Source of the DNA: Ascidia mentula
Lineage: Eukaryota; Chordata; Ascidiacea; Phlebobranchia; Ascidiidae
NCBI GenBank assembly: GCA_947561715.1
Contig: OX387203.1
Location: 3,038,001 to 3,102,000 of the forward strand
Direction of reading: 5' to 3'
DNA: 64,000 bases
Positions 10,758-63,000 of this stretch are shown here, piece by piece (position 1 is the stretch's first letter; every line of letters begins with the position of its first letter). The notes below the pieces were generated by a model. The model saw only the letters and a program-made list of their open reading frames with translations, had not been told where the DNA came from and searched no databases. Made by a program: the position numbers and the translations under genes.

Positions 10758-13700
10758 CTAGAGCTGTCTGCTCAAAAGTTCGTTAACGTCAATGCTGCAT
10801 TGTGGGAAACATTCGAGACTTTCGTCGTACTCCATACCGCCTGTGACGTCATTCCCCTGTTGAGAGTAGTTGTTGACATTGGCTGAGAGTTCGGAGCTAC
10901 AAAAGGCGTTACTGTTGACATAAGTATTGGAAAGGTTCAGCCACAATAGAAATCGCAAGTATCTGTGGGCTTAGGTTATTGCGTTAATCAGAATTGTTCT
11001 TCTGACACTCAAGTTTCTAAAGGAGTTGCGTGACGGTACAAGCGGTGCCAATGTTATCCATCCCCTTTTTTCTTGTGTTTTTCTTGCGTTTTTAGTGTTT
11101 ATGTGCTCGATGCATTATTGTTGCCATAACCTTGAGAAGCCTCGACGGATGGCAGACGAAATGTCGGTTTCAAATAAACACTTTAGAAACTTAAGTGCCA
11201 GAAGAACAGTTCTGATTAATTAGTATGCCTGGTGGCAAACATATTTGGGTCATTGAAGTCGAAATCACATTTTTGACTTGGTTACACGATGCTCACGTGT
11301 ACACGGCAAGCGTAATGCAATAACTCTTTCCTATTTATAGATTAACCCGGAATGACATAGTAACTGGATGGTATGGCAGAGACCGAAACTGTGTCCGAGC
11401 CCTGCCCGAATCACTTCGGTAACTCTCGGTCACGTCCAACTTGACAAAGACAAAAAATAGCCGGTATCGCCCTTAAAGCGCTATAAATGTAAGCTATATA
11501 TGAATATGAGGCGGAAAACAACATAGGAATTAGCAAAACATAAATAATTATGCCGTGCGGAGAGCCGGTACAGCTGGGCTAATTACAAACCCAAGCATAA
11601 ACATTCCTAACTTCGTGCCCATTTACCCGTATTTTTTTTATCAGCCTAGGGTATACGAAAGGTTAGCAAAAACACCAAATAATCAATAACTATATAAATG
11701 AACAAACGAGTACAATTGCACACTTACACATCATATTGCAAGCTGTTGTGGTGAGTAACAGGCGTTGGACTGTGAATGGAGAGGGGACCGTCGTACGTGC
11801 TTCCTGCTGGGGTATTTGGAGCACTATCTCCCATTAGACTGATGTTCAGGTGGCTGCTGAATAAACAGGGAGGTTAGTTTGCAAAAATGGGCGCATTTTG
11901 TTCCGGGGATCCACAAAATAATTGTGTTTGACACAGTTGTATTCTGCACCGTTGCATAAAATACATTGATTTTTTTCTATTGGCGACAACCAGAACAGAA
12001 TAAGTCCCTACTTTTACTGAGTTTCGTCTGGTGTTTTAGTAAATACAAATACCACAACTTGTCAGTATATGATTATTTGCGGCGGTAAGGGTTTTTTTGT
12101 TCTCAATGACCAATAGTCACTATGGTAACACTATGGCGTTATATTGCGTCATCTTCCGCCAAAAAGAGCGGCCGACATTAACTGTTGGTGAAATTATAAC
12201 CAATGAATCAAAGAGTTGCACAAAGCGCACGATTTCGACCCATAGGCCTAGTTCATAGTCGTACAGTTGCCTGTTTTCAGGAGATAAAAAATATTAAAGG
12301 CAAAACGGCAAAAAAAAACAATTTCTGTTAATTAACCCATGTCTAACAAGACTGTAGCCCAAAGGTGAAAAAGAAACACCAGTCACAGTGACAATGCAAA
12401 ACCACCTTTCCATTTATGGATTACCCGGGAATGACGGAGTAACTCAATGGTAAGACAGCAGCCAAAACCGTGTCCAAGACCTTTCCAAATCACTGCAATT
12501 ATTCTCGGTCACGTTTGACCTTACGCAGAAAACAAAATGCCGGTATCGCTCCCAAAGCGCAATACTTATACGAATTTATACGATATACCAGTGTAAATGG
12601 TTCGCGACGGCATTCCAGATGGCACGCGAGCACCCTCCGTAGCTCGAATTTAAAAAATCGAAAGTGATTTCAAAATGTTTGTTACTTCATCTCCTAGGTA
12701 ATTTTGTAACACTCAACTAGGTGGTACGCGTTGAAATTGTTTTACCTTCGAGTGGTACGCAACAACAAAAAGTTTGGGAATCACTGCCGTATACGAAGAA
12801 ACAGAAAAAAATGCGCGTTTCAGGTGGTCACGTGCATTGTGCAACAACAATTGTGCAAGCTGTGAATATTTTCTCTTAAACTGTAGAAAATGGAAACAAA
12901 GTGGATTGGATACAAAATAGAGCTGACTCAGGATTTGTTTTTTTAGAAAATCTATGTGGCCTCCGGGCGTCGCTAGTGTAAGGATGCCCTGAACAACACA
13001 ATATTAACGATGGCCGCCAGGAAGAATACAAATATTTGCCGAAACAAACAGTTTGATTTCTTGAAACAGCAACGTTGGTGAAAGACATGTTGACTTTTGA
13101 GACTTGCTTTTGCTATATCTACTGTGTTCGTTTCTGTTTGAATTAATTGTGTCACAGTTTCAAATTTCACTCACTTTTAGAGGGGTTACGAGTTTAAATC
13201 TGATAAAGCAAATTTTTGAACAGCAAATATAATATTTGTGGAAAAAAGCCATAATATTGGAGAGCTGCAGACAGGGTGTATACACGCACTGTTTCGACCT
13301 GTAAGGTCTCATCAGTGCAGCTGTTGATGTGGCACTGTGCTAGCTTTCACACTAGCAGGCACACTAATTTCCACTTTGTTTACACAAGCTGTCTGCAGCT
13401 TTTCAAAATATAATATTGTTGTCGGGATATCTTAAATACGCTTGACTTCTTATATTTTTTTCGTTTTTTTTTAATCATAAATGAAAACTAGGGTGCAAAT
13501 CATCAACCAATTCCAAATTAAAGCAATAAAACTTGCTATAAAAAACTGCCACGCAAGCAAACACAACATACACGTTTTTGCCCAGCTGCACTGTTACAAA
13601 AACGTGAGACGTTTTGTAATTTTAACAAAAAGAAACGATTTTAGCCCGGAAATACCGAACTATATCTGTCCCACTGTCATTGATCCATTGTTCCAACGTC

Positions 13701-16700
13701 ACTAGTTAATATATGGTTGTCATATTTCAACGTTTGATGAACACGTTTTGGCGCAATCAAGTCTGCCTCTGTTATTTCAAGCCACTGGTCACACCAATCT
13801 GCGTCATGTGATTAATAACGCCGTTTTCGATAAAAACAAGCAATTTTGGCCAAATGTGAACAGAAGTTTTTCAAAAAATAGGTTCGATTGTCTGTTGGTG
13901 GTGCCAACTTTTGAACATTTTCAACTTACTTTGGTCGCATGTTGATCGTCTGCATCAGCTCAGTGCGCACGTATCCGTCTCCTTGTGCTGTAACAATAAA
14001 AATTATGATGTCATAAAGCAAGTAACAATCGCTCAGTTCAGATATATTTGAAAAAAGGCAAGGCAGAACAGTGAAATGTTTACGCCCATTATGACAACCA
14101 ATAAGCTGAATGATTGTAGAATATGCAATAAAACGTTTTTGCAATTTGAAAATTTCAATGGTCTTCTGGGCCCTGGTGGGCTGCACCGACTGCACCTCCC
14201 TCGGGGGTCCTAATACCATCACAGACAACAACGGCTTGATGCAATTTGAAACCGAATGTTGTCAGTTATATTTTTAACACCATATTCAAAAACATCCGCA
14301 TCTGGGAGTTCTTCCCAACAGATAAGGCCGTCCTTACAGATGTGTTCCTGCCTTTTGCGACAACACAAAATGGCCTGGTTCCTCTATACGACAATGCTTG
14401 TACATGTATTTTGTTCAAAATAGAAATATGTATATTATGTACATTTGACCTTTTACTCTCCATGACGTATTTCGTAAATATGTTAGTTTGGAAAAGGGTC
14501 ATTTGCGCCGGCAATTAACGTAATACAAAGCCTACATATTCATGGTCATTTGGGTTAAAAACTATCATGCGACGATTGGTTTAAATGAAGCACGCTCAGT
14601 ATGCCTTGTTTCAGTCGTAATACACACGAGTCGCCCAAAACTGGCTAACTTTAGCACCAATGTATAGGATGCTGCACCTAAAACCACTCAAGATAAAAAA
14701 AGCTTCAAATACCTAAAATACCCGTCCGAAAAGGTAAATTTGCAACTGTGTCCGACACGAAAGCATTTACGAACCATAAATAACCTGATAACCATTCTGA
14801 CAATCTCCCTTCACTACTTACGGGTACTACTGATGGTCTTGCTGTAATATTGGCCGAAGACTTCGTCTTTAGTTTGAGTGGTGTCGTCAATCTTGCATAT
14901 AAACATTAGCTGGTCGAGGTCCTTGATGCGATCGGCCAAAGATCGAATCCCGTAATCCCGTAGTGTTTGTGGCTGAAGATTCCAAACCCTTGCGATTCCT
15001 GCCGTAAGATAATGGGTATTTAGTTACACAGTAGCTCTCCTGTTAGGGCGTCATAGCGCTTTAAGACATTGGTAACATACGTCAATTGTATGTGACGTAG
15101 CAATGTACAAGCGGGTAGCACCACTATTCCACTAACAATCATGTTACTTTCACTGTTAATAATGATGTTAATCCTTGCGAACTTGTGGAATTTCATTACA
15201 TATATATGGTAATATAATATAATAGCAATCGGAAGGCCACATATTTATAGCTTTGTAATATACGTTGCCTTCTGTAAGTTAAAGGTGCCACAAAAACCTT
15301 CAGCACAGCAACAACGTGGCAGCAATTGGCCTCTTGTCTATTGCAAGTAACAGCAATCTACTCCACGCTAAAGTACTTTAATTTGCCATCGTACTATTTT
15401 ACTCATCACAGCAAATAGGAAATTCCTAGCAATACCTTTGTCTGATTCTGCAACCCAAGCGATTGTCAGACCTCCGATCTCAGAGTCTGAATATCGCAGA
15501 AGGAAAGTAGAGCAGGGTTTGGAGAGGAGTTTGTCCTGGGATTCAGCCTTGCCTATGAATCCGATGATCGCCCTGTGTACCACAGAAGTATGCGATAAAC
15601 CAGGACAATAGTTGGTGGAAATTTTTTAGCAAAATTAAAATTATGGTTCAATTGCTTATTATTGAAAAATCGCGATCTTAACCACAGACTGCAGATTCTG
15701 GCCTAGCGATCACTGTACCTTCCGTAATGGCAATATGCACACAAACAACTAACTTTAAAACATAATCATTTCTTGAAGATTTCTTGAAGAAGGGCGAAAT
15801 ACGTTTTCCACAATAGAAAAAATGGATTTGTAGATTGCCTTTTTAGAAATACATTGACATATATGCATTTATTAACTGTGTACATATAACCTGTACTCCT
15901 TGCATCATAATACACACACCCCCCAAACCCATATTATATCCCAGCATACCCGTCGTTCCAGTGTTGTTGCAGATGCTTGCTCTTCGTAAGTTCCATCACA
16001 CCATTAAACCATTGCCAGAACGTGAAGTTGCGATTGGGCAACGGTTCTCTGTTAAACTGGGCCCATGAAATGTGCTTGTCCGAGTTAGGTGGGATATTTT
16101 GCCCTGCACAGAAAAAAAAGTGAAAGGATTTTTCTAGAATTCAGACAAGGTTTTCTTTATCGAAATCACACATAAATTTTGAACAATGAAAAGCAAGACA
16201 GATATGTTGATCCCTGGCCAACAAGGTTAAATTATAGTTAAGCATGTGAGTGAGCGGTTTCGGTATTTATACAACCATAGATTGGAGCAAAACGTACGGA
16301 AGACTTTGTAGGCGAGGTACTGTTTGGCTTGCGGCGTTAGTCCCTTACTGCTGTGACACTCATGCTTCCACTTGCAGTCGAGGGTGTCAATCAATTTGCA
16401 CCAGGGGACTTTGTCTGGGATGTGAAATGGGACGCGACCCTGGATGTAGGGATTTGATTAATAAACAAACTTGTGGCGAGTATTTTTAATACTGTAGATT
16501 ACATAATGAAATTAGGTGCTTTTGTTGTGTGTATCACTCATGTGTAGGTAAAATATTATTGAATTGACATGCACGGATTGCTACACACAATTACACGAAC
16601 GACAGTCGCTCAATTACCGAATCGACATACACAGATACAGAGCCATTGTAGCCACACACATCAAACATGTATGAATATTGGTCTTAAATGAACAAAGGCA

Positions 16701-25700: not shown

Positions 25701-27304
25701 ACAGCCTTTAGGTAAAAAGTCGCATATGGGGAACTGCATTAACCTCTGCTGAATGCATTCAGTTCAGAGTTACTATATAGCAACCTGTTGTGTAATCCTG
25801 TCCTACTATGAGTATACCTGGCCACATGACCATAGTCAATATTACCCAGTGTAAAAATGTAACTTAACAGTTACAACACTAACCCACCATCAATAGCGAT
25901 TGATTGGTACCAAAACCACCAATATACCTTGCCCTTCTACTAAAACTTACTGTTGATTCATGGAACTAGTAATAAGAAAAACATTTGTTGCTTAACATCA
26001 AGTAGTTGCTAAACAATACAAGCCATTCAGAAAGTAAAAAGAGACTTGCAAGATTAACACACAAAAGTATATGCTTGCTTGTGCACTGCTTTTATAAGAG
26101 ACTGACTGTTAAACAACTTTATTCGCACGAGCTTTCGCGAGATTGATCTCGCTTCATCAGGTGCAGCAAATAACGTGTCAAATAAATTTTTCTTGTCAAA
26201 TTTTTTTCTTCCTTGTTTTTAGCGCTGTTACCGCATTTTATATGAGACTTGCAAGATTAACACACAAAAGTATGAACATCTAGGAAGATTGGGACTTACA
26301 GCATTGGCCTGCTGGACGAGTCTGTATTCAATGGAAAGGATTTTTTTGACTGTTCTGACCAACTCCAGTGGGGCAGGTCCATAAACATTCTATAAATTAA
26401 AAAAACAGTTTGTTAAAATAACTGCCCTTTTCATTTTTCTACAGTAGTATTCAAATTTCACGGTTTGCAAACTCTACATATTTTTATCAATTCTGTTGAG
26501 GCAATAAGAGAAGACATTACTTGTTATGAATTCTGCAAAACTTTTAAAAATACAGTATTTTTTAGATTTATACAGCGAGTTTAACAACACAGGCATGAAC
26601 ACTAGGAACAGACAAATTGCATTTCATGAAAATTTGGTGCTTGCGGAACAATTTATCTTGTGTACCTTAAAATGGGAAGCAATCTCGCTGAAGTGCAGCC
26701 TTTGAAGGAAATCTTTTCCCTCTGTCAGCTGATCACACTGTTTCTGTATTTCTCCGAGAAATAAATCCAGGATGTATTTTGCATGGGGTTCATCGTTGGG
26801 AATATTATCAGGATCCAATTGATCCCTAAACCACAAGCAAAACATATCATATTTTGGAGTCAAAAAAAAAAACTGAAATCCATAGCTATAAAATTGCATT
26901 TAACAGAGTTAATTTAAAGACAAGTAGAAGAGTGGTAAGAAGAGGTTTAAAAATTGTACTTCCAGTCAGCAACAATGCAATGACAATAAAGTATAATCTA
27001 ATTATTGAATATTAAAGAGTCCAGGGTTGATAGACATTTTTTTAACATTGGTAAAAAAACATAAAAACTTAATCTAGATGCGAGTAAGTGTAATTTGTGT
27101 ACTTAATAAGAAACCTTGTCCATACAAATAGCTTCCCTAGTTCATAAAATCAGATAAAAATACTCCTGATTCTTACCATGACTGACGCTCAATGATGTCA
27201 GCAAAGTAATGACGGAACTCGATGGGAAAATTGGGCCCATACAGGTTCTGTATTTGCCTCAAAGAGTCCCCCTCCAACTCTCTTACTTTAGCCCACAGAG
27301 ACAT
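10758..27304 (-). CDS. stat5: STAT transcription factor, STAT5/6 type, complete
   Basis: Eighteen exons, all phase-consistent: 27304-27177, 26825-26666, 26389-26300, 24117-23940, 23354-23218, 22844-22693, 22415-22260, 21941-21762, 21295-21202, 18012-17890, 17240-17148, 16439-16298, 16103-15950, 15572-15436, 14998-14822, 13987-13930, 11856-11728, 10896-10758. They encode 808 residues; human STAT5B has 787. In order: the N-terminal domain ([19 protein letters not shown]), four-helix coiled coil, DNA-binding domain ([37 protein letters not shown]), linker ([20 protein letters not shown]), SH2 domain with phosphotyrosine-binding Arg ([13 protein letters not shown]), the DGYV tyrosine phosphorylated by JAK kinases, and a Ser/Pro/acidic C-terminal tail. 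Phosphorylation gives SH2-mediated dimers that enter the nucleus and bind GAS sites. The best match throughout is STAT5 rather than STAT1-4. An extra in-frame exon at 16995-17093 is listed separately. The acceptor 46 bases before the ATG implies a 5' UTR intron or spliced-leader addition. Confidence 0.95.
11311..11505. repeat. dispersed repeat, copy 1 (partner at 12391-12585)
   Basis: About 195 bp in the last STAT intron, roughly 70-75 percent identical by eye to 12391-12585. Shared phrases include CGGAATGAC / GGGAATGAC, TCTCGGTCACGT and GCCGGTATCGC. No coding content was seen. The family is unrecognised. Confidence 0.6.
12391..12585. repeat. dispersed repeat, copy 2, interrupted at its right end by a hAT MITE
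   Basis: Second copy of the repeat at 11311-11505, lying in the preceding STAT intron. The right end runs into the MITE at 12589-12787, and sequence resembling the continuation of copy 1 resumes after it. The MITE therefore seems to have inserted into this repeat. Confidence 0.55.
12589..12787. mobile_element. hAT-type MITE, same subfamily as 40189-40391
   Basis: Starts CAGTG and ends TTTGGGAATCACTG. The internal sequence (CTCGAATTTAAAAAATCG, GTAACACTCAACTA, GTTTTACCTTC) closely matches the copy in CCDC15. The flanking 8-mers CGATATAC and CCGTATAC agree at 6 of 8 positions, as expected for an aged hAT target duplication. There is no transposase. Confidence 0.75.
13263..13322 (-). ncRNA. type I hammerhead ribozyme, apparently intact
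   Basis: Read on the minus strand: stem I AGCTGCA, core CTGATGA, stem II GACCT-TAC-AGGTC, core GAAA, stem III ACAG...CTGT closing a 14-base loop that contains the self-complementary GTGTATACAC, then C as the cleavage nucleotide (GUC), then TGCAGCT pairing perfectly with the first strand. All invariant hammerhead core positions are present and each stem pairs without mismatch. In vivo self-cleavage is inferred, not shown. Confidence 0.8.
13263..13400 (-). mobile_element. 138-bp repeat with inverted ends carrying a hammerhead ribozyme
   Basis: The ends are AGCTGCAGACAG (13263-13274) and CTGTCTGCAGCT (13389-13400), perfect inverted repeats of 12 bp. On the minus strand the 3' half is a hammerhead ribozyme, listed separately. 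The 5' half shares AAAGTGGAA and a following stem-forming segment with the copy near 57.9 kb. There is no open frame. It lies in the STAT intron between the exons at 13930 and 11856. Confidence 0.65.
15661..15745. repeat. dispersed repeat fragment (partner at 56282-56368)
   Basis: About 85 bp in a STAT intron sharing ATTGAAAAAT, CCTAGCGATCACTGTA, TTCCGTAATGGCAAT and GCACACAAA with a NuMA intron segment at 56282-56368. There is no coding content and the family is unrecognised. Confidence 0.7.
16995..17093 (-). other. stat5: STAT exon 11, copy B: duplicated, probably mutually exclusive exon
   Basis: This 99-base segment is phase 0 at both ends and encodes 33 residues including [12 protein letters not shown] and VLWDNAF. 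It aligns with copy A over its whole length. Many differences from copy A fall at third codon positions, while VVVIV and LWDNAF are unchanged, which suggests selection on the protein. It has its own acceptor (attccacag) and a weak donor (AAG|GTACCC). Only 54 bases separate it from copy A. The copy A His is replaced by Asn, as in the NVSQ loop of STAT1. Use of copy B instead of A would give an 810-residue protein. Confidence 0.75.
17148..17240 (-). other. stat5: STAT exon 11, copy A (STAT5/6-type DNA-contact segment)
   Basis: This 93-base exon is phase 0 at both ends and encodes 31 residues including [12 protein letters not shown] and ILWDNAF. The VVV strand and the loop after it belong to the STAT DNA-binding domain. 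The loop has His in VHGNQ, as in STAT5 and STAT6. The acceptor is atgcag and the donor CAG|GTCGGT, which is weak. Confidence 0.9.
17484..17636. mobile_element. intact-looking hAT-type MITE with perfect ends
   Basis: 153 bp bounded by perfect 15-bp inverted repeats CAGTGGTGGGATTCA / TGAATCCCACCACTG. A perfect 8-bp target duplication TATAGAAG lies at 17476-17483 and 17637-17644. It sits in the STAT intron between the exons at 17890 and 17240 and has no transposase. The exact target duplication suggests a fairly recent insertion. Confidence 0.92.
20297..20537. mobile_element. probable degenerate hAT-type MITE
   Basis: Begins CAGTGTTTCCCCAAAC and ends near GGGAAACCGATTTAGAAACACTCTG, giving imperfect inverted ends of the CAGTGTTTCCC type in a STAT intron. 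The target duplication is not clear. This call rests on end similarity alone. Confidence 0.4.
22451..22642. repeat. dispersed repeat in STAT intron, copy 1
   Basis: About 190 bp, similar over its whole length to 24652-24832. Shared phrases are AAATGTCATTTAGA, TTTCGCCATAATGGCAACG and TCAGTTT. There is no coding content. Confidence 0.8.
24652..24832. repeat. dispersed repeat in STAT intron, copy 2
   Basis: Second copy of the repeat at 22451-22642, in the same orientation, about 80 percent identical by eye, with small gaps. It lies in the STAT intron between the exons at 26300 and 24117. Confidence 0.8.
26041..26273. mobile_element. 173-bp insertion flanked by an exact 30-bp direct repeat
   Basis: The same 30 bases (beginning GAGACTTGCAAGATT, ending AAAAGTAT) occur at 26041-26070 and 26244-26273. 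The 173-bp segment between them holds, on the minus strand, CTGATGA, a strong hairpin GCGAGA/TCTCGC and GAAAG, resembling part of a hammerhead core, but no proper stem III can be drawn. The direct repeat looks like a long target-site duplication. It lies in the STAT intron just upstream of the exon at 24117. Confidence 0.6.
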
Positions 27305-27807
27305 GCTGTTCACGCCTTGTATTCCAGATGGGGTTAAGGAAAGGATGTTATCTAAAAATGCACATATAGAGGATATATTTTGCGCTTTAAGAAATTTGTT
27401 GTTACTGAAATTACTACCACAAGCATGGAAACACTTCAATGCAGCTTGTGAAATAGATTATATATAAGAGGTGAAAATGGTGACAGTTATTGCAACAGAA
27501 TGGGGAATTACAAAGAATACTGTAAAAAGTAATAAGTGTTTTTGGTTCTAGTTAAACCATTAGGACGTGAAAACAAAAACTGTTGAGTTTCAACAGGGAA
27601 AAAATTACCATCATTACATTGCCACATCATATGTACCCATTGTTGTACATTTTTATATTTCCAAAAATATTTGAAACAGGTAATCAAATAAAACCTAAGT
27701 AATATATAACACTATATAGTATTCATAGCAGGTAGGAAACATGTCAAAACCGATTAGTAATACTTCCATCTTGACTAAAATTGTAACAATAGTGTTAGCT
27801 AAGGGTT

Positions 27808-49400: not shown

Positions 49401-52400
49401 TTATTAAATTTAGTTTGAAATATTTTTGTGCATAGGAATATTCAGTGAAAGAATTGGAACTTCAGAATGATCTGCAAGATATGAAAAGCAAGTTTAATGA
49501 ACTGCTACAAACTCTCCAGGAAAGCGAAATAAGAAACTCATCAATTCCGCAAAATGGTTTGTACAATTTTTACAACCTATAAAATAATGTGGTTAAGGAA
49601 TATGACATTGTTACACTGTAGATTGCAGAAAATAAACCACTTTTTGTCAAATTTCATGATAGAATTAGAAAATTTCAGTAAACACAAAAAACATATTTGT
49701 GTATAAAATGCCTAACAAACTGTGTGGAGTAAATAGTATAATATTGCTACACTGTATAGGAAATAATATATCTTTCTAATACTTTGAATACTCTTTTTAA
49801 TGTACAATACCTAACATACAACATGCAATTTTTTTCACGCAAAAATTATGTAACCTTATACGATTATTCCAGAAGCTTCTATGGAAGAAGATGGCCTAAA
49901 ACACAACACACAAATACCTTCTGAAACCGAAAATATTTTAAGGGTAACTACACTTAAATATCTCGGAACTACATACAGACGGCCACTGTTGCAAATATTA
50001 AGGTTTCATCAGTGGCCATCTGTATGCAGCTGACAGAATTAATAATATTGGCTCTTGCTTTTATGTACACTTGAATATGCTTGTCTGTTGTGAACCTTTT
50101 AATCGTGATATACTTTCAGACGACTGTGGAAAACTTGCAAAAGCAGTTGCAAGAAGCCGAAAGCCGCGTTTTACAGGTGACGAATTGCTGTCAATATACA
50201 TTTTAAAAAAATCATAAAACTATGCAGCAACAAGTGTGTGGCCATGGTTGTTTTTAACTTTTTGGCCACAGATAAAACAAATTTGGGAACCGATGGTGTT
50301 AACTAATACACAAGACACTAAGACAGTTACATAGGCTTGATTTTAAAATCTCGCTCCGACATGTCGGGAAAAAGTGGCTGATCCAGCTAGGCTGCAATGC
50401 CTGGGCTGCGAAGCCTGTAAACCTAATGATCTCGATACGATAGCTGTGATAGCCAAATAAGGACCTGCGCAGTGGGGTAATCATGCGATTACATGGAATA
50501 TTACTATATATATGACAGTAAAGCAATTACTAGAGTAATTATGCTGAACGTTTATAATTTTTCAACACAGCAACAAACTCGCGAAGAAGAAATCATTGAA
50601 ATGAATGCAGACAGGATAGAGGAACTCAAACAAACCATAACCAACCTCGAAAATGAACTCCAAGTCACTAAAATCTCAACACTTGAGGCACAAAACGCGA
50701 CTGAAACCGAGCTATTGCGCATGCGCACAAGACACGAGACGGTACAGACGACCTTGGAGGAACTCAAGGAGCAAAATGAGGGAGCGAGGCGGGAGATTGC
50801 TAGTCGGGATCATGAGATAGAGATATGTAAACTGAGATACTCTGAGGCTGAGGAACAATTGGTTAAATCAAAGGTGGATCATGGTTTGTCTGCGGAGGGG
50901 TTCAAGGCACAGATTGAAACGCTGCGTACTGGGAAAGATGACCTAAAGAGAAAGGTTGGCATAGTTTTGTAATAACTGTATCCCATAAAATATGGTGTAC
51001 AAGGTGTATGTAAAGCAAAGATGGCCTATAACGCAAGCTAAAGAAAATGATTTGCAACAAACAAATCATTATCATGTACGCAATTGCGTTCCAATTTCTT
51101 AACTTTTCCTAGCGGCGTATCCCAACCTTAAGACTTTTACATGTTTACCAAAGCAATGAAAATAGTGGAAATCCGCTATGTACCAAGGCGGGTTTTAACT
51201 AACCACGTCAGGGTTGTAATCTTTCATTCAGCTCAACTAACGTAATGTCACATGCCAAGATGCCACTATAGCCTAATGGCCTGAAATTATGTTTTTTTTA
51301 GTCTGTATCACTATAAATGTTCTCCGGAACATGGTGTTGCGTATTTGAATTATATCTTTACTTGACCGAAATCGACGTTCACCGAATGGTATACCACAAA
51401 GTAGATATCACTGTGCCCGTTAGTTTAAAAGTTAGTCCAGTGCCACAATTGCCGCACTGATGAGACCCCATAAGTCGAAACATTGTGCACAACTGTATGT
51501 ATATATAAATATACTAAATATATCCTTTTTTATGCATAGGTTGAAGCGCTTGAAAGCAAAACCACCCTATACGAGGCCCAGATTAAGAAATCTGACGCCA
51601 ACCTCGTGCAACAGAAAGTCGAATACGAGAGCAGGTAATACTCAACACAAGCTATACTGTCACCTCAAATTCTTTGTCTGGCCGTTTGGTAGCCAAGATC
51701 CTTCATATTGTCACACCAAACTGCACTGATGAGACCTCGCAGGTCGAAACAGTGGCCATTTGTTTGTAGCGTATACAATTTATAGTGTTCAAAAATCGCC
51801 AGAATTTCAAGTACTTTTAGCCAAGGTCGGGATGTAGATGTAAACGCTTGTGGTTTTTAACCTTACCTGATGATTTTGACTGCATCCGAAATGCATGGTT
51901 CGTAATGTGTTTATTTTTCAGGATAATAACGCTCGAAAACAAAATAAAACAACTCGAATTTGAACTTGGCGAATCCAGGGACCTCTCCACTACCATTAAC
52001 AGCTGTGATATGAATGGGGTAACATATGCATTAGAATATCATCCTTTACCGACGATTTTGTTGTAATTGACTGAAAGCTTTGCTGTATTGCTGTCCCACA
52101 GGCGTTTTCCCATACTTTGGCTGTGAGACCATATTCTGTTTTTAATATAATCCTATAATTTGTAGCTAACTTTGCGCGGACGTTTTTCGCGCAAAATTGT
52201 TTGATTTTGCCGTAAAAGTTTATTTTTCAATTTGTGTTGTTTGTAGAATGGCACAATTTTGACTCCCAACAAACTGCTTCGTTCACTCAGTGAAGATTGC
52301 CTCTCTACTCCTACCAATAAAATGATGAATCAGAACAACGATTCCCTCAACGATTCCTTGGTAAAGATACACATTTTCATTGTAATCTTTGTGTTACTCG

Positions 52401-55400: not shown

Positions 55401-58383
55401 TCTCATTTAAAGTCGTCTTATCCAATAGAAACCCAGGTAATTAACAGATTATAATGCCAACTTCGTTCCTTTTCAAAAACGAACGTAACCGTTCTCCCGT
55501 CAAAACATTTGGATGCTGAACACCCTACTTGAGACATATTCATAACTCAGCAAGACATTATTAGTTTCTTAAAGTATGCATTCAACGAAGCACATACTGT
55601 TACAATTTACCGCGTACTTTAAACATCAGCCGTTTTTTCATATTTCACGTCAACTCCTAGCGCATGTGTATTTTCAACGGAACCACAAAACGATTCCATG
55701 TTTATTAATAGAGTTTCAAGAACAACGACAACCCCGCGAGCGTGAGTCGTCTTACCCCTGTACTACACGGCGTGTTTTGCACCTAACGTTTTCTCAGTTT
55801 TCACGTAGTTGTGTGCGGACATTTGTGTGTTTAAAATTTGACACGGCGTGTTCGCACTCTGGGCGTGGTCGGTTTGACATAAACATTTCCGAAACAGCTT
55901 CAAAAACATGTTTGAAATCTCCCATTTCTCTTGCAGGGGAAAACCCCAAGCAAGTGTGACGAAACAATCCGTATCGGAAAAGCCAATGAGACGATGAAGC
56001 GAGTGGACGAGGTCAAAGAAAGCGGGCATTCGAAAGAGAAAATGTTCATCAGTGAGTTGTTGTTTAACTTCAAAACGTTGCCTGTCTGCTTTTGTGCTTT
56101 CAGTATGATTTATAGTGTGTTTCTATTACCTTTTGAGAGCTTACAGAGTGTTTCCTTGTATAAATTCATATCACTAATTTTAGGCTCTTGCGCTCCACGA
56201 ACGAAGGTATTATATTTTTTCCGCCGTTGGCATTTGCAGTTGTTCAAATAGAGGCGTTTCGTAATCGCGATTTCTTCAAATATTGAAAAATAATTGAGAT
56301 CCATAGCTTGCAGGTGCTAGCCTAGCGATCACTGTATACTTTCCGTAATGGCAATTTGCACACAAAGCACTGGTTGATCCCGTTGTCAAAAGCTAGTGCT
56401 TTGTGTAAATCACAATTTATCCGTTTGTGTGTTTACCGCATATGCAGGGCCCTTGCGCTTACTGATGTGTCATATATTGTAGTTCGGTCACTGCCTGGTT
56501 ATCGTTCGTCATCGTCGTTGCAAGCTAAACGCGACCAGCAGAGGGCGCCATCAGCAATGCACGGGACTAAACGGAAACAAGTTCCGACACTGGAACCAGA
56601 CATGAGATGGGACATAACTTCACCAAAGGTAGAAAACAGTGGTTTCATAAACATTACTGCAGAGGTGGCCAACATGTTCTTATTCAAATGGTGTGTGGAT
56701 TGCACGCCTGTATATATATGCACCTTATGATGTTTCCTTAGTTGCCATATCCCTAAATACACACCTTGAAGGCTTAATTTTTTTAATATTTTTAATATAC
56801 ACCCCATCTACAACATCTGTTGTGCAAGTTTTAGTTTTGATACGGGAATATGTGCTGAGCCAAAGAAATTTCCATGACGTTTTACCACCGCTATGTAACT
56901 TATATTTAACAGAGTCGGAGAGAGACGATTGCGGGTCCGTTCGCCACAGCTTCGTCTATCAACAAATTCACCGCCAAACACACCAACGAAAACCGGGTAG
57001 GTGAAACCGGCATTGGGCCTGATTTATCTCACATAGATAAAATTGTTTCAACACTAAAGAATAATGATATTGGTTGACTATATATGTTTTGCCACCGTCA
57101 CTCGTATAATAACTCAGCCAGTGTTTCACAACAGACAATAATGAGCTAATCTTATGTAACCAAAATATTAGGAAAACCCATAGCGCTTTCTATTACCCAA
57201 CCTGTTACACTCGTTTTGGTTACAAGGTTTACACGTAAAACTTACATATTTACACACGAATGGACAGAACAAAGCGCAAAAAACGTCAGATAACTCCTAT
57301 TGGCGGCTGAATTGCGTAGCAGCCATTTAAAATAATATGTTTTTTTTTTAGAGAGTAACCCGCCAGAGCATGGCGTTTGAGATAACAAACACACCGCCTG
57401 TCAATATAGGAAGCAGAAGACGTCGCCCTCGAAAGTCACCGCCAGCCCATTCCACACTTGCAGGTAAAATGACTATCTCGTGTACGTTCAAACATGTTGA
57501 GTTTCTGTGACTTGAAATTGCGATCAACATATATGCATTTATTCTGTGTTTTTTTCGCGCTATTGAGCGACCAGAGCCTTAATTGTCCCCGTCGGCCGGG
57601 CTGTGTTCAACTTGAAATTATACGCAGCTCACGCTAAGCAAAAAAAATTTGTGGCAGCCCTGCCTAGGAACATCTTATACGTGCCTTTAATGCTTGACAG
57701 CAAACTTTTACTACCGAAAGTAATTTGTATTACGACTGCCACAAATGATCAACTTTTACTCAGACAAACCCATGCTTTTAAATACGCTTGGAACCATTAC
57801 TATGAGTTCTGTGAGCTGAGTACAGATTGTTTCCCCCTAGTTTGGTACCCATCGGATGACGGTGATTATATAGTCACCACAAAGTGGAAGTCTTTGTCTG
57901 GCCGTTTGGCCGGCAAGATCGTCCTTAGTCACATCAAGCTGCACTGATGAAACATTAGGTCGAAACAGTGGTCCTCTGTATGCAGCTCACATAAACCCAT
58001 ACTTACCCTCATTTTTCCAGCTTCAAGCAAACCGAGCAAAAAAACGCCTGAAAAACTCGTTACTACCCGACAACGAGCGAAGGAATCCGGCAAGCGAACA
58101 CCCAGTCTGGTAAGATTTCGCGTTTAAAAAAAATTAATTTCAACGTGCAACACAATAAATTCAAAGCTCTTCTGTCAAAAAAACGTTTCAGTCGTACTTT
58201 TCCTGATGAAGGTCGGTTGCATAACGAGTGAAACGTCGACCATGTAAATTATTTTGCCAGAAGAACTTTGAATTTATTGAATATAATGCCTGTCGGCGTT
58301 AGCAACAAAATGTCAACATGTAACTTTCAACACAGATGGACCGCATGAGAAAACCGCTGGGTCGTCTTAATCCAAAGAAATGA
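43409..58383 (+). CDS. numa1: NuMA (nuclear mitotic apparatus) homologue lacking an N-terminal hook domain
   Basis: Thirty-eight phase-matched exons; total 4344 bases, 1447 residues. First exons: 43409-43432, 43684-43755, 43958-44102, 44158-44266, 44326-44431, 44645-44749, 44942-45053, 45134-45192, 45460-45576, 45801-46083. Last exons: 55309-55436, 55937-56051, 56483-56628, 56913-56996, 57352-57463, 58021-58109, 58336-58383. The first ~1,000 residues are continuous heptad-rich coiled coil. The C-terminal part carries NuMA-specific blocks: KRIAELQDRNSRQPSHLK, RKQVPTLEP, RQSMAFEITNTP and basic KPSKKTPEK/GRLNPKK tails, matching human RIAELQ.RN..PPHLK, RKRVSLEP and RQSMAFSILNTP. NuMA binds LGN and dynein at the cell cortex and focuses spindle poles. 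Human NuMA begins with a ~150-residue hook domain that contacts dynein; here the first exons (MSPAPGTPIINYK) align just after it. Remaining exon positions are in the next feature. Confidence 0.9.
48501..48686. repeat. tandem duplication, two units of 93 bp
   Basis: AAAGCTCTAGGCTAAATTTT at 48501 recurs as AAAGCTTTAGGCTAAATTTT at 48594, and the two 93-bp units match at about 90 percent. It lies in a NuMA intron just before the exon at 48710, so the acceptor tract follows the second unit. Confidence 0.9.
49969..50029. repeat. hairpin made of inverted ends of the hammerhead repeat family
   Basis: Arms 49969-49988 and 50010-50029 (ending GGCCACTG and starting CAGTGGCC) pair over 20 bp with two mismatches around a 21-base loop. 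The arms match the end sequence AGCTGCATACAGATGG-CCACTG seen in other family members. The minus strand has CTGATGA but GCAA in place of GAAA, so it is a decayed or rearranged copy. Confidence 0.65.
51450..51504 (+). ncRNA. hammerhead ribozyme copy, weakened stems
   Basis: Core CTGATGA (51457-51463) and GAAA (51477-51480) are present. Stem II is only GAC/GTC. Stem III is ACA/TGT enclosing the palindrome TTGTGCACAA, with A as cleavage nucleotide; stem I pairs poorly. It lies in the NuMA intron 50955-51539. Confidence 0.5.
51719..51771 (+). ncRNA. type I hammerhead ribozyme, nearly intact
   Basis: Core CTGATGA (51726-51732) and GAAA (51746-51749). Stem II GACCT/AGGTC with loop CGC is perfect. 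Stem III ACA/TGT is short, U is at the cleavage position, and stem I is ACTGCA against TGTAGC with one G-U and one mismatch. The upstream 50 bases (TTTGTCTGGCCGTTTGG) are shared with the copy at 57937. It lies in the NuMA intron 51635-51921. Confidence 0.6.
53250..53325 (+). repeat. tRNA-like segment, possible SINE head
   Basis: GGTTCGAATCC at 53302-53312 is a perfect internal B box. TACCACGTAGTGG about 45 bases upstream resembles an A box. The T-arm pairs over four bases, but acceptor and anticodon stems are not convincing. It lies in the NuMA intron 52954-53345, immediately before an exon, and no poly(A) tail follows. Confidence 0.45.
53508..53590. repeat. two short direct copies of a hAT-end-like motif
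   Basis: GCAGTGTTTCCAAAACTTTT and GCAGTGTTTCCCAAAACG occur about 37 bases apart in a NuMA intron. They resemble hAT terminal repeats, but no partner end or target duplication was found. Confidence 0.4.
56282..56368. repeat. dispersed repeat fragment (partner at 15661-15745)
   Basis: Same family as the STAT-intron copy, with CCTAGCGATCACTGTA and TTCCGTAATGGCAAT. It lies in the NuMA intron 56052-56482. Confidence 0.7.
57937..57987 (+). ncRNA. type I hammerhead ribozyme with damaged stem II
   Basis: Stem I AGCTGCA/TGCAGCT is perfect. The core CTGATGA and GAAA are intact. Stem III ACAG/CTGT is perfect around loop TGGTCCT, with A at the cleavage site (GUA). Stem II (AACATTAGGTC) pairs poorly, so activity is doubtful. 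Upstream sequence from AAAGTGGAAG at 57881 is shared with the other copies. It lies in the NuMA intron 57464-58020. Confidence 0.65.
58154..58278. mobile_element. 125-bp foldback element with 21-bp inverted ends
   Basis: Ends 58154-58174 and 58258-58278 (AATAAATTCAAAG...TCTTCTG and its complement) match at 20 of 21 positions. Between them lies CCTGATGAAGGTCGG...GAAACGTCGACC, which resembles a hammerhead core without proper stems. It lies in the last NuMA intron. Confidence 0.6.
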
Positions 58384-60024: not shown

Positions 60025-63000
60025 TCAGTTGTCGTCGTCCACCATGTTTTTCTTCAGACAGGAAAACACTGAGGGTTGTCCACCAGATGACGCCATCATC
60101 ATAGGTACTTGGTTCTTGTGCGTCACGTGGATCTACACAAGTGACGTCAACATTTAACTACGCTTTAAGCATTACGATCAAACCAAAATGCCAAACGAGT
60201 TTGCCAATAATGCTTGTGAACCTTTTTAGATAGGACAAAATGTTCTGTTCGCATTCCTAGCAATGCCACAGTTTCAAAAATAGAAAATCGTTGCTGTTAA
60301 CATGTTGTGTAGCAGTTTTGTGAAGCTTTGCAAAAGTAATTTGTTGATATTCTGATTGTATTACTCAAGGTCGCTTGAGTATAGTTATCTATAAAGCGAA
60401 AATAGTTTATATTACCGTGCATGGAACTTGCATCCACGGTTCACCGTCCACTTGCATCGGAAAAGACTTCTGCGTCCTGAATACAAAGTTACAGTCAGAG
60501 ACTCAAGGTCGCGTTCACGCAGCAAAATAAAATAATCCAAGATGTATGGTGTGTTTGTATGAGTGACAAAGCGGGTTAAAAAGTACATTTCAATCCTCTA
60601 GAATGCTAGTAGCGAGTGACCCACTAGACAAAAACATTAACTTCCATAATGTTAAGAGATTTAAACATGTTTTCGTCTAGCTTTGCTCATCAGTTACAGA
60701 ATTTGCTGACCTCAGCATAATTTATGACGGCGCCTACTCACGTGATTTTTATGTCACTCCCTTGTGCCAATCTCTTTCCAGCTTTAAGACCTGAGATTAT
60801 TTGGCCGACGTCCATCGCCCCTTCCAACCCCACCACCTCCAACTTCTTGTCTCCCATTTCTACAGAAAGGAAGGTTTTAGTGAATGTGATAAGCGACTAG
60901 AATAGTACATATATGCTGCTATTCCTGCTGCCAGGTATCGTAATTTTTGAGAACTGTTTTTCTAGCGTAAAGTTACGAGATTTTTATTATAACCGACGTT
61001 TCGTTTACCATCTGGTGAGACTTCTTAAGGGTTATATGGCAACACGTTATCATGTACATAAACGCCAAAACGCAAGAAAAAAGGTAAATATAAAAAATCC
61101 CTTAACTTTATGCCCGAGGAACAGTTCTCAAACAAAAGAATACTACAGTTGTATGAATTTGGCAATATTGGCCTTGTTACCCAGGCGTAAAAGAGGCGTG
61201 TAGTTTAGTAAGCAAACATTCAAAACTTCTTATATGGTGAGCTGCAGACAGATGGCCACTGCTTCGACCTAATACAGGTCTCAACAATACAGCCGAAGCA
61301 AAATTTCTTAAATTTTGAAAATGTTATTTCATTTACACCAACCGTCACTGCGTGACATTGAACTGGCGAAAAAAATCGCACAAAAATCACCTTGAACTGC
61401 ATAGCGAAGGTCACCACTCGTGTCCTTCCCTCTTCCCTTCTTTTTGGATGGTCCCCACAGGTTTGTGCCCCCATAAACGCTGGGGATGTTTAGAATGGCA
61501 ATGCCCTGGCAGCGATTGCGTGAGAGTTCCAGCTTCACGCCATCAACCTATAAGGAAATGGTTTAAGCTCTCTTGAACGGAATAATAAGTAGCATATAGC
61601 TCTGAGCTTGGTCAGAAAAATGATCGTATAATATTCCGGTGGTCACGGGATTAAGGGCTTTTCCGGTCAATAACGATAGCCAGCAATTACAGGTTCCGTA
61701 CGTTTAGGCGATGTTTAAGGGCCCGCAACAGTTACCTATGCGGAGTAAAATCTGCATATACGCGTCTTAGTGCGAAATGTTAAACTCGAACGCTGGTTAA
61801 AGATGTACAAAGTATTTATAATGTAATGCTATACTGTTAGGTTTTTGGTGTTGACGATATAAAAATATAGGAAACGCTGTGCATTGTTTAGACTAAATTT
61901 ATGAGAGCAAACTACACACACTGTTGTGGATAGGGTCAGAGGGCAGTTCTCAAATTATCGGCCTAAAATACAGTTGGAATGTAACGATTTCCCTTCTTCC
62001 GTGCCCAGTGAGCCATTTATGTGCACAATATAACGTCGAACCCAATAGATGCAGGGTCACGACTGGTAATCACTGTACACGCACCAGAGAGCGGAAAGAT
62101 TGGATGTGCGACGCCAAATGCGCTTGTGAGTGGAATAGCATCGATTTGCGTTCTGAAATCGATATATCGAATCGAGCGCTTTTCTCTGACCGATCGTAGT
62201 TTAATCTGGTCCTTGTCCTGGTTTAATTGACAGGTGATGGAGAAGCGTTACTTATTAAAGCGTGGATTTATACGCGAACGAAATCGGGGGCAGCAGTACA
62301 AAATCTCGCGCACTCCTTAATAAAACGCCCTTTTATTTGCCCTTTTTTGCATCGACTAATGTGTTTGTGGAATGACACGTTTACGCTTTTGTCGAGCGAA
62401 AGCATTGGAATCAACGACAAACAGGATTTACGTCAAACGTTTCTTGCGTCCCAACCCGCAAATATGCGTCAGAGATTAATTTGGCCTTTGCGATTGCGGT
62501 AGTTCAAAACGTCTGCGCGGTAAGCATTCTGTAAGAATGCAAAAAATGTACTTGGAAGAAGTAAGACTCAGCAATGTCGTCAATATTTGTTGTTTGTAAC
62601 GAAAATAGAAATGTTGCTTTTCATAACCATGAAACAATCATCGCGAAGCTAAAACCTTTTTATGTGCCCACTGGATGTATATATTCCAATAAGCATTGTA
62701 CCACACAATACTTGAATATACCAAGTCCAAGCTTTCTGTTCACATTATTGATCATTTGGCATTAGGACCAGGGCCGGCCCTTGGCACATTAGGCCAAATC
62801 GTGCCCGGGCTTGTGGGGGGGTCTCACAATTGACCATGTAGACCCCCATGAAACAAAACAAAGGTAAACTCGAATTAAGACTCATTTTTGGATGAAATGC
62901 AGAACCAGCATTCTGTTTCCTAATCGGGTTCCACTTTTTTTAGGACCGGCCCTGCTTGGGACAAGTTTTTTCCTAAACTTACCACAACTTCCAAGTTGTC

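Follow-up and report, generated by a model that had tools for sequence, protein, structure and literature searches.

The 64,000-nt stretch of the Ascidia mentula genome analysed here (the window) carries on its minus strand the domains of a STAT gene, with Pfam matches to STAT_int, STAT_alpha, STAT_bind, STAT_linker and SH2 (one of the two STAT_int matches lying below its cut-off) that begin at 27173-27457 and end with the SH2 portion at 15368-15625. An open reading frame at 14814-15023 has no Pfam match and resembles the end of the SH2 region by eye. About 2 kb beyond the last recognised STAT domain, and about 1.4 kb beyond that reading frame, there is a short insertion between target-site duplications, which contains a type I hammerhead ribozyme motif on the same strand as STAT (Table 1). 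An earlier note on this DNA had placed the hammerhead in a STAT intron; this location is unproven, no further STAT exon having been recognised beyond 15368, and the insertion may be intronic, in the STAT 3′ UTR or intergenic.

Table 1. The insertion and the parts of its hammerhead motif (window positions; unit positions refer to the 291-nt repeat described in the text)
Feature	Position	Strand	Details
Left target-site duplication AAATATAATATT	13225..13236		identical 12-mer either side of insert
Whole retrozyme insertion	13237..13405		two arms head to head, 169 nt
Main arm, unit ~150 to 292	13237..13379	-	5′-truncated, intact hammerhead; 96% identity over 138 nt
Type I hammerhead motif	13263..13322	-	stems I/II/III of 7/5/4 bp, intact core, GUC triplet
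Hammerhead stem I	13322-13316/13269-13263	-	7 bp
Hammerhead core CTGATGA	13315-13309	-
Hammerhead stem II	13308-13304/13300-13296	-	5 bp
Hammerhead core GAA	13295-13293	-
Hammerhead stem III	13292-13289/13274-13271	-	4 bp
Self-complementary decamer GTGTATACAC	13276..13285	-	in stem III loop
Hammerhead C17	13270	-	predicted cut between 13270 and 13269
Inverted short arm, unit ~243 to 270	13378..13405	+	84% over 32 nt; inverted repeat
Right target-site duplication AAATATAATATT	13406..13417		identical 12-mer

Read on the minus strand from 13322 to 13263, the motif is AGCTGCA-CTGATGA-GACCT/TAC/AGGTC-GAA-ACAG/loop/CTGT-C, followed by the predicted cut and TGCAGCT. It displays the CUGANGA...GAA core, the A15.1-U16.1 pair, an H17 that is not G and three stems with stem I open, and thus both the geometry and the strand that the earlier note gave for a complete hammerhead in the exact order are borne out, as is the self-complementary decamer of the stem III loop, in place of which most other copies of the family have GTGTAC. 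The note's view that a chance match is very unlikely also stands: a descriptor comprising the core, stems of at least 5/4/3 bp and a UH preceding the cut has no match in 300 simulated 64-kb windows (first-order Markov, both strands) versus two in the real window, the second being a diverged relative of this hammerhead at ~51,722 (+). Without the stem requirement the motif is not uncommon, with three occurrences in the window against 0.75 expected. The covariance-model check that had been proposed was run against Rfam 15 and yielded no match reaching the gathering score; the best sub-threshold matches are RAGATH-1-hammerhead (29.2 bits, cut-off 56.3; E 0.0095 for 701 nt and 0.87 for the whole window) and Hammerhead_3 (24.8 bits, cut-off 48.5; E 0.0073 for 701 nt and 0.67 for the whole window), and the type I hammerhead model is absent among the matches listed. 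Other copies of the family attain scores equal to that of the window copy, likewise below gathering, and the weak score accordingly reflects the family and not the decay of this copy. The minimum-free-energy fold of the motif RNA is the hammerhead in two fold computations, with energies that are ordinary against shuffles (z -1.56 and -0.23, respectively), and in the centroid fold the core is masked by a strong rival hairpin, GCACUG...CAGUGC. These two hexamers flank the hammerhead core (13289-13322, minus strand) and can pair family-wide, with a second CAGUGC further upstream in the unit; such pairing might switch the ribozyme off in circular RNA.

The window copy belongs to a 291-nt repeat (GC 47.8%) that occurs in tandem and is dispersed in the 195.8-Mb genome (79 contigs). 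Genome searches found at least 49 places matching the 171 nt around the motif and at least 103 matching the 291-nt unit, and the 34-nt ribozyme core and a 22-nt 3′ stretch of the unit have 394 and 141 exact occurrences, respectively, versus none for the reversed-pattern control of either. Hence, the hammerhead is not a feature of STAT, as had been proposed, and not a conserved single-copy intronic ribozyme confined to one locus, but one copy of a multi-copy dispersed element. The unit has no long ORF (the longest M-started one in a trimer is 70 aa), and its tandem arrays reach eight units in one direction followed by five in the opposite one at a single site (L039). No LTR-like layout was seen among the examined sites, and a 29-nt core has no exact counterpart in viral contigs. 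Self-pairing of the unit RNA is strong (z -2.84), and when this RNA is folded as a circle, the hammerhead fold lies only 1.4 kcal/mol above the best one. Across seven older copies, picked for being the more diverged ones, 12 of 459 letters differ in the hammerhead minus its loop versus 59 of 813 in the rest of the unit (Fisher p 0.0003), and 24 of 610 differ when the loop is included (p 0.008); judging from these substitutions, the element seems to retain its ribozyme as it multiplies.

To describe the insertion scar we used 55 fetched sites and the window (56 in all), five of which are duplicates by their flanks (L062, L063 and L064 of L058; L069 and L070 of L068), leaving 51 independent sites. 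An exact word of at least 8 nt is common to both outer flanks at 41 of the 56 sites (38/51 independent) versus 10.5% of 3080 mismatched flank pairs, and one of at least 10 nt at 33/56 versus 1.6% of mismatched pairs; at least three of the 41 calls are spurious, the word in L044, L050 and L059 being the element's own letters. The element is thus flanked by target-site duplications longer than 4 nt. Twenty-three of the 51 independent sites, including the window, are head-to-head pairs, with the 3′ ends always outward and the 5′ ends always inward, and the remaining 28 run in a single direction. Consistently, close opposite-strand neighbours among 91 of 100 listed core sites are in the -+ order ten times and never in the +- order.

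The two outer ends of a pair differ in kind. In 20 of the 23 pairs, one lies at unit 286-305 (the long, or tail, type) and the other at 251-277 (the short type), the short end falling at 265-277 in 19 of these 20; the exceptions are L068 (53/301), L071 (90/275) and L075 (52/273). All these positions are alignment-derived and are displaced by a few nt at sites where duplication and element look alike. Single-direction sites have 22 long ends, five short and one elsewhere, a tally that places L061 among the long ends (285), although inspection by eye shows a pair whose very small second arm has a short end. Were the ends chosen independently, 20 discordant pairs out of 20 would have a probability of ~7e-11, a figure that uses 21 long and five short single ends and omits the three unclassifiable pairs. 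The window copy obeys the same rule with outer ends at unit ~292 and ~270: the main arm ends in the long type (its alignment stops at unit 286 and the last letters before the duplication were assigned by reading the sequence), and the short arm, head to head with it, ends in the short type.

Where the two arms of a pair meet, their 5′ ends have no fixed relation in unit position and the junctions contain short overlaps or fillers, the pattern that end joining would produce. Snap-back self-priming as the source of pairs is disfavoured because the arms stop at unrelated unit positions (e.g., 81/44, 70/141 and 150/243). Rare variants are shared by arms within a site in 6 of 82 cases versus 6 of 1263 for arms of different sites, and so the two arms of a pair may derive from one RNA, as far as such variants can indicate. 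The 5′ ends located by pattern searches have no clear or significant enrichment at the ribozyme cut (two sites at U259 versus one each at U260 and U262), and they accordingly provide no cleavage footprint; two 33-nt insertions (L115, L116) and one longer copy (L060) start exactly at the predicted cut, a number too small to make a footprint. A seeming surplus of 5′ ends around U1 was disregarded, the query used in the search being biased towards full units.

A comparable scar is found in the Penelope-like elements (PLEs) of this genome, which are marked by 121 GIY-YIG matches. Neighbouring matches less than 7 kb apart are arranged -+ 17 times, ++ five times, -- once and +- never. In all three PLE pairs that we opened, one arm ends ~37-62 nt further than the other, and the flanking duplications measure 12, 13 and 16 nt (the last with one mismatch). 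With EN+ PLEs of other animals, namely the A. vaga Penelope (PMC3846280) and the anole Poseidon (PMC11167929), the retrozyme shares head-to-head and tandem copies, duplications, a hammerhead and a tail at just one of the inverted ends; in A. vaga Penelope, the inverted pseudo-LTRs (pLTRs), mostly head to head, bear the tail on one of them and lie between 8-10 nt duplications (PMC3846280). A head-to-head form with a tail at one end only, between duplications, is what 20 of our 23 pairs have. Unlike PLEs, the retrozyme has neither a reverse transcriptase nor an endonuclease, its unit being too short for an ORF that encodes RT and GIY-YIG domains, and a 4-bp stem III is present in its hammerhead, in contrast to the minimal PLE hammerheads, which are reported to lack helix III (PMC7761336).

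In other respects, the family resembles the metazoan non-LTR retrozymes (PMC7229834): it combines a type I hammerhead, a unit within their 150-450 nt range, tandem copies, a GC content below 50%, no long ORF, duplications of more than 4 nt and a strongly self-paired RNA, and among animal retrozymes its ribozyme is unremarkable. For those retrozymes, circular RNA and cleavage have been demonstrated (PMC7229834); for the present family, both are predicted. The head-to-head pairs and the two-site 3′ end of the present family have no description in the accessible text of PMC7229834, in which the words 'inverted', 'opposite' and 'head-to-head' are absent, and no description of this scar in retrozymes was found in the open-access journal papers searched.

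We posit that the 291-nt repeat is the unit of an animal retrozyme, a non-autonomous retrotransposon moved by PLE machinery, of which the window copy is one old, short insertion product; we assign this explanation as a whole a probability of roughly 0.78. It builds on the repeat family, its tandem units, duplications and head-to-head form, the two 3′ start zones with the one-each rule and the likeness to PLEs, from which we infer ribozyme cleavage, circular RNA and a PLE protein as the worker. The retrozyme repeat would be transcribed and its RNA cut by the hammerhead into units able to be circularised. The PLE reverse transcriptase/GIY-YIG endonuclease would then bind this RNA, make a staggered break of ~12 nt and use the two broken strands as primers for DNA synthesis, which on each would start at one of two sites close to the unit 3′ end. 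The two cDNAs, spanning one or more units, would be joined at random 5′ ends, resulting in head-to-head copies between target-site duplications.

PLEs have been named strong candidate movers of animal retrozymes on other grounds (Cervera & de la Pena 2020, PMC7229834), and in papers from 2020 and 2024 co-occurrence, shared hammerheads and tandem copies led to the view that PLEs (or LINEs) probably move them. The likeness in scar adds structural support for PLEs as retrozyme movers and hints at the moving enzyme. For a purified anole PLE, cleavage and extension of both strands have been reported (PMC11167929), with reverse transcription starting at two adjacent internal sites, and the tail signature that arises from these two sites is called unique to PLEs; both marks are present in this retrozyme. 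The same study gives the start site of the anole PLE as alike on both strands and its ribozyme as dispensable for insertion in vitro, and hence the one-each rule is neither predicted nor explained by that system. Extending the argument to animal retrozymes at large, we lean towards the view that they are integrated by PLEs with both strands of one break primed on the retrozyme RNA in fixed roles, one strand at the distal 3′ site and the other at a proximal site ~25 nt upstream.

The alternative that survives best has the retrozyme moved by a LINE, its head-to-head copies being the outcome of ordinary twin priming. 5′ inversion is known for LINE-1, and variable duplications of ~12 nt together with 5′ truncation would also suit LINEs. 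However, twin priming starts the inverted arm at random internal places, whereas here 19 of 20 second arms are at 265-277 and the first arms at 286-305, and the PLEs of this genome have the same form, which makes a LINE a rather unlikely mover. It is also unlikely that the unit is the pLTR of an autonomous PLE rather than a separate retrozyme, even though PLE pLTRs carry hammerheads and occur both in tandem and inverted, and a CTGANGA...GAAA motif (counted as motif only, without a stem check) is found in 17 of 20 PLE 3′ flanks, 148-511 nt past the domain. Against this, the unit contains no ORF, pure tandem arrays of it exist, all 56 retrozyme sites are more than 15 kb from any listed PLE and no unit was seen in the 20 PLE 3′ flanks examined out of 121. 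The single match in these 20 flanks is a decayed hammerhead relative (44 nt at 75%), which is also present beside a near-identical copy of that PLE. Several of the PLE-flank motifs end in GAAAGCT, and in these a stem III is possible only between two molecules.

The earlier suggestion that the hammerhead works in the STAT pre-mRNA, cutting an intron or the 3′ region and hence regulating STAT, draws on its presence on the STAT strand with core and stems intact; set against its hundreds of copies elsewhere in the genome, its placement in a complete insertion with duplications and a position inside STAT that is unproven, we consider it very improbable, and the STAT gene is probably a bystander of the insertion. 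A chance motif, or a repeat of DNA-transposon type (MITE or satellite) that involves no RNA step, is scarcely credible: the inverted ends of the window copy are MITE-like and first resembled terminal inverted repeats, but other copies show that they are the outer 3′ ends of a head-to-head pair, a by-product of the joining that single-direction copies do not have, and this reading also conflicts with the variable 5′ truncation, the variable duplication length and the empty simulated windows.

With retrozyme movement by PLE machinery as the favoured explanation, the hundreds of short copies bearing a PLE-type mark mean that one purified PLE protein and a 300-nt RNA would suffice for a direct test of what moves the element. 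If true, this would be the first retrozyme family with this scar documented and a compact natural substrate for studies of PLE integration. The different start sites of the two arms also constrain the mechanism of that integration.

The window has further relatives of both kinds of element. Two diverged hammerhead relatives at 51371-51485 (+) and 51721-51770 (+), 269 nt apart with the direct repeat GCACTGATGAGACC..., appear from their sequence to be a tandem of another retrozyme family, and the one at 51721-51770 still matches the stem descriptor with 5/5/4 bp. A third diverged relative at 57893-57990 (+), which over 101 nt is 75% identical to sequence lying ~500 nt beyond a PLE reading frame (L117, L096), is on similar grounds assigned to a putative further retrozyme family. 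PLE 3′ fragments are found at 10984-11243 (head to head; 10984-11019 on the minus strand and 11029-11243 on the plus strand), at 60912-61081 and, between STAT exons, at 26041-26273, again head to head (26068-26186 minus, 26201-26248 plus), the last with a minimal hammerhead-like motif and a 30-nt direct repeat at 26041-26070 and 26244-26273. Cellulose-synthase-like exons, which score 108 and 88 bits against a cut-off of 699, are no more than a hint of a tunicate host. An imperfect hairpin at 49956-50042, which attains 27.6 bits against mir-2012 (cut-off 90) and 23.2 bits on the other strand, is probably an unrelated inverted repeat.
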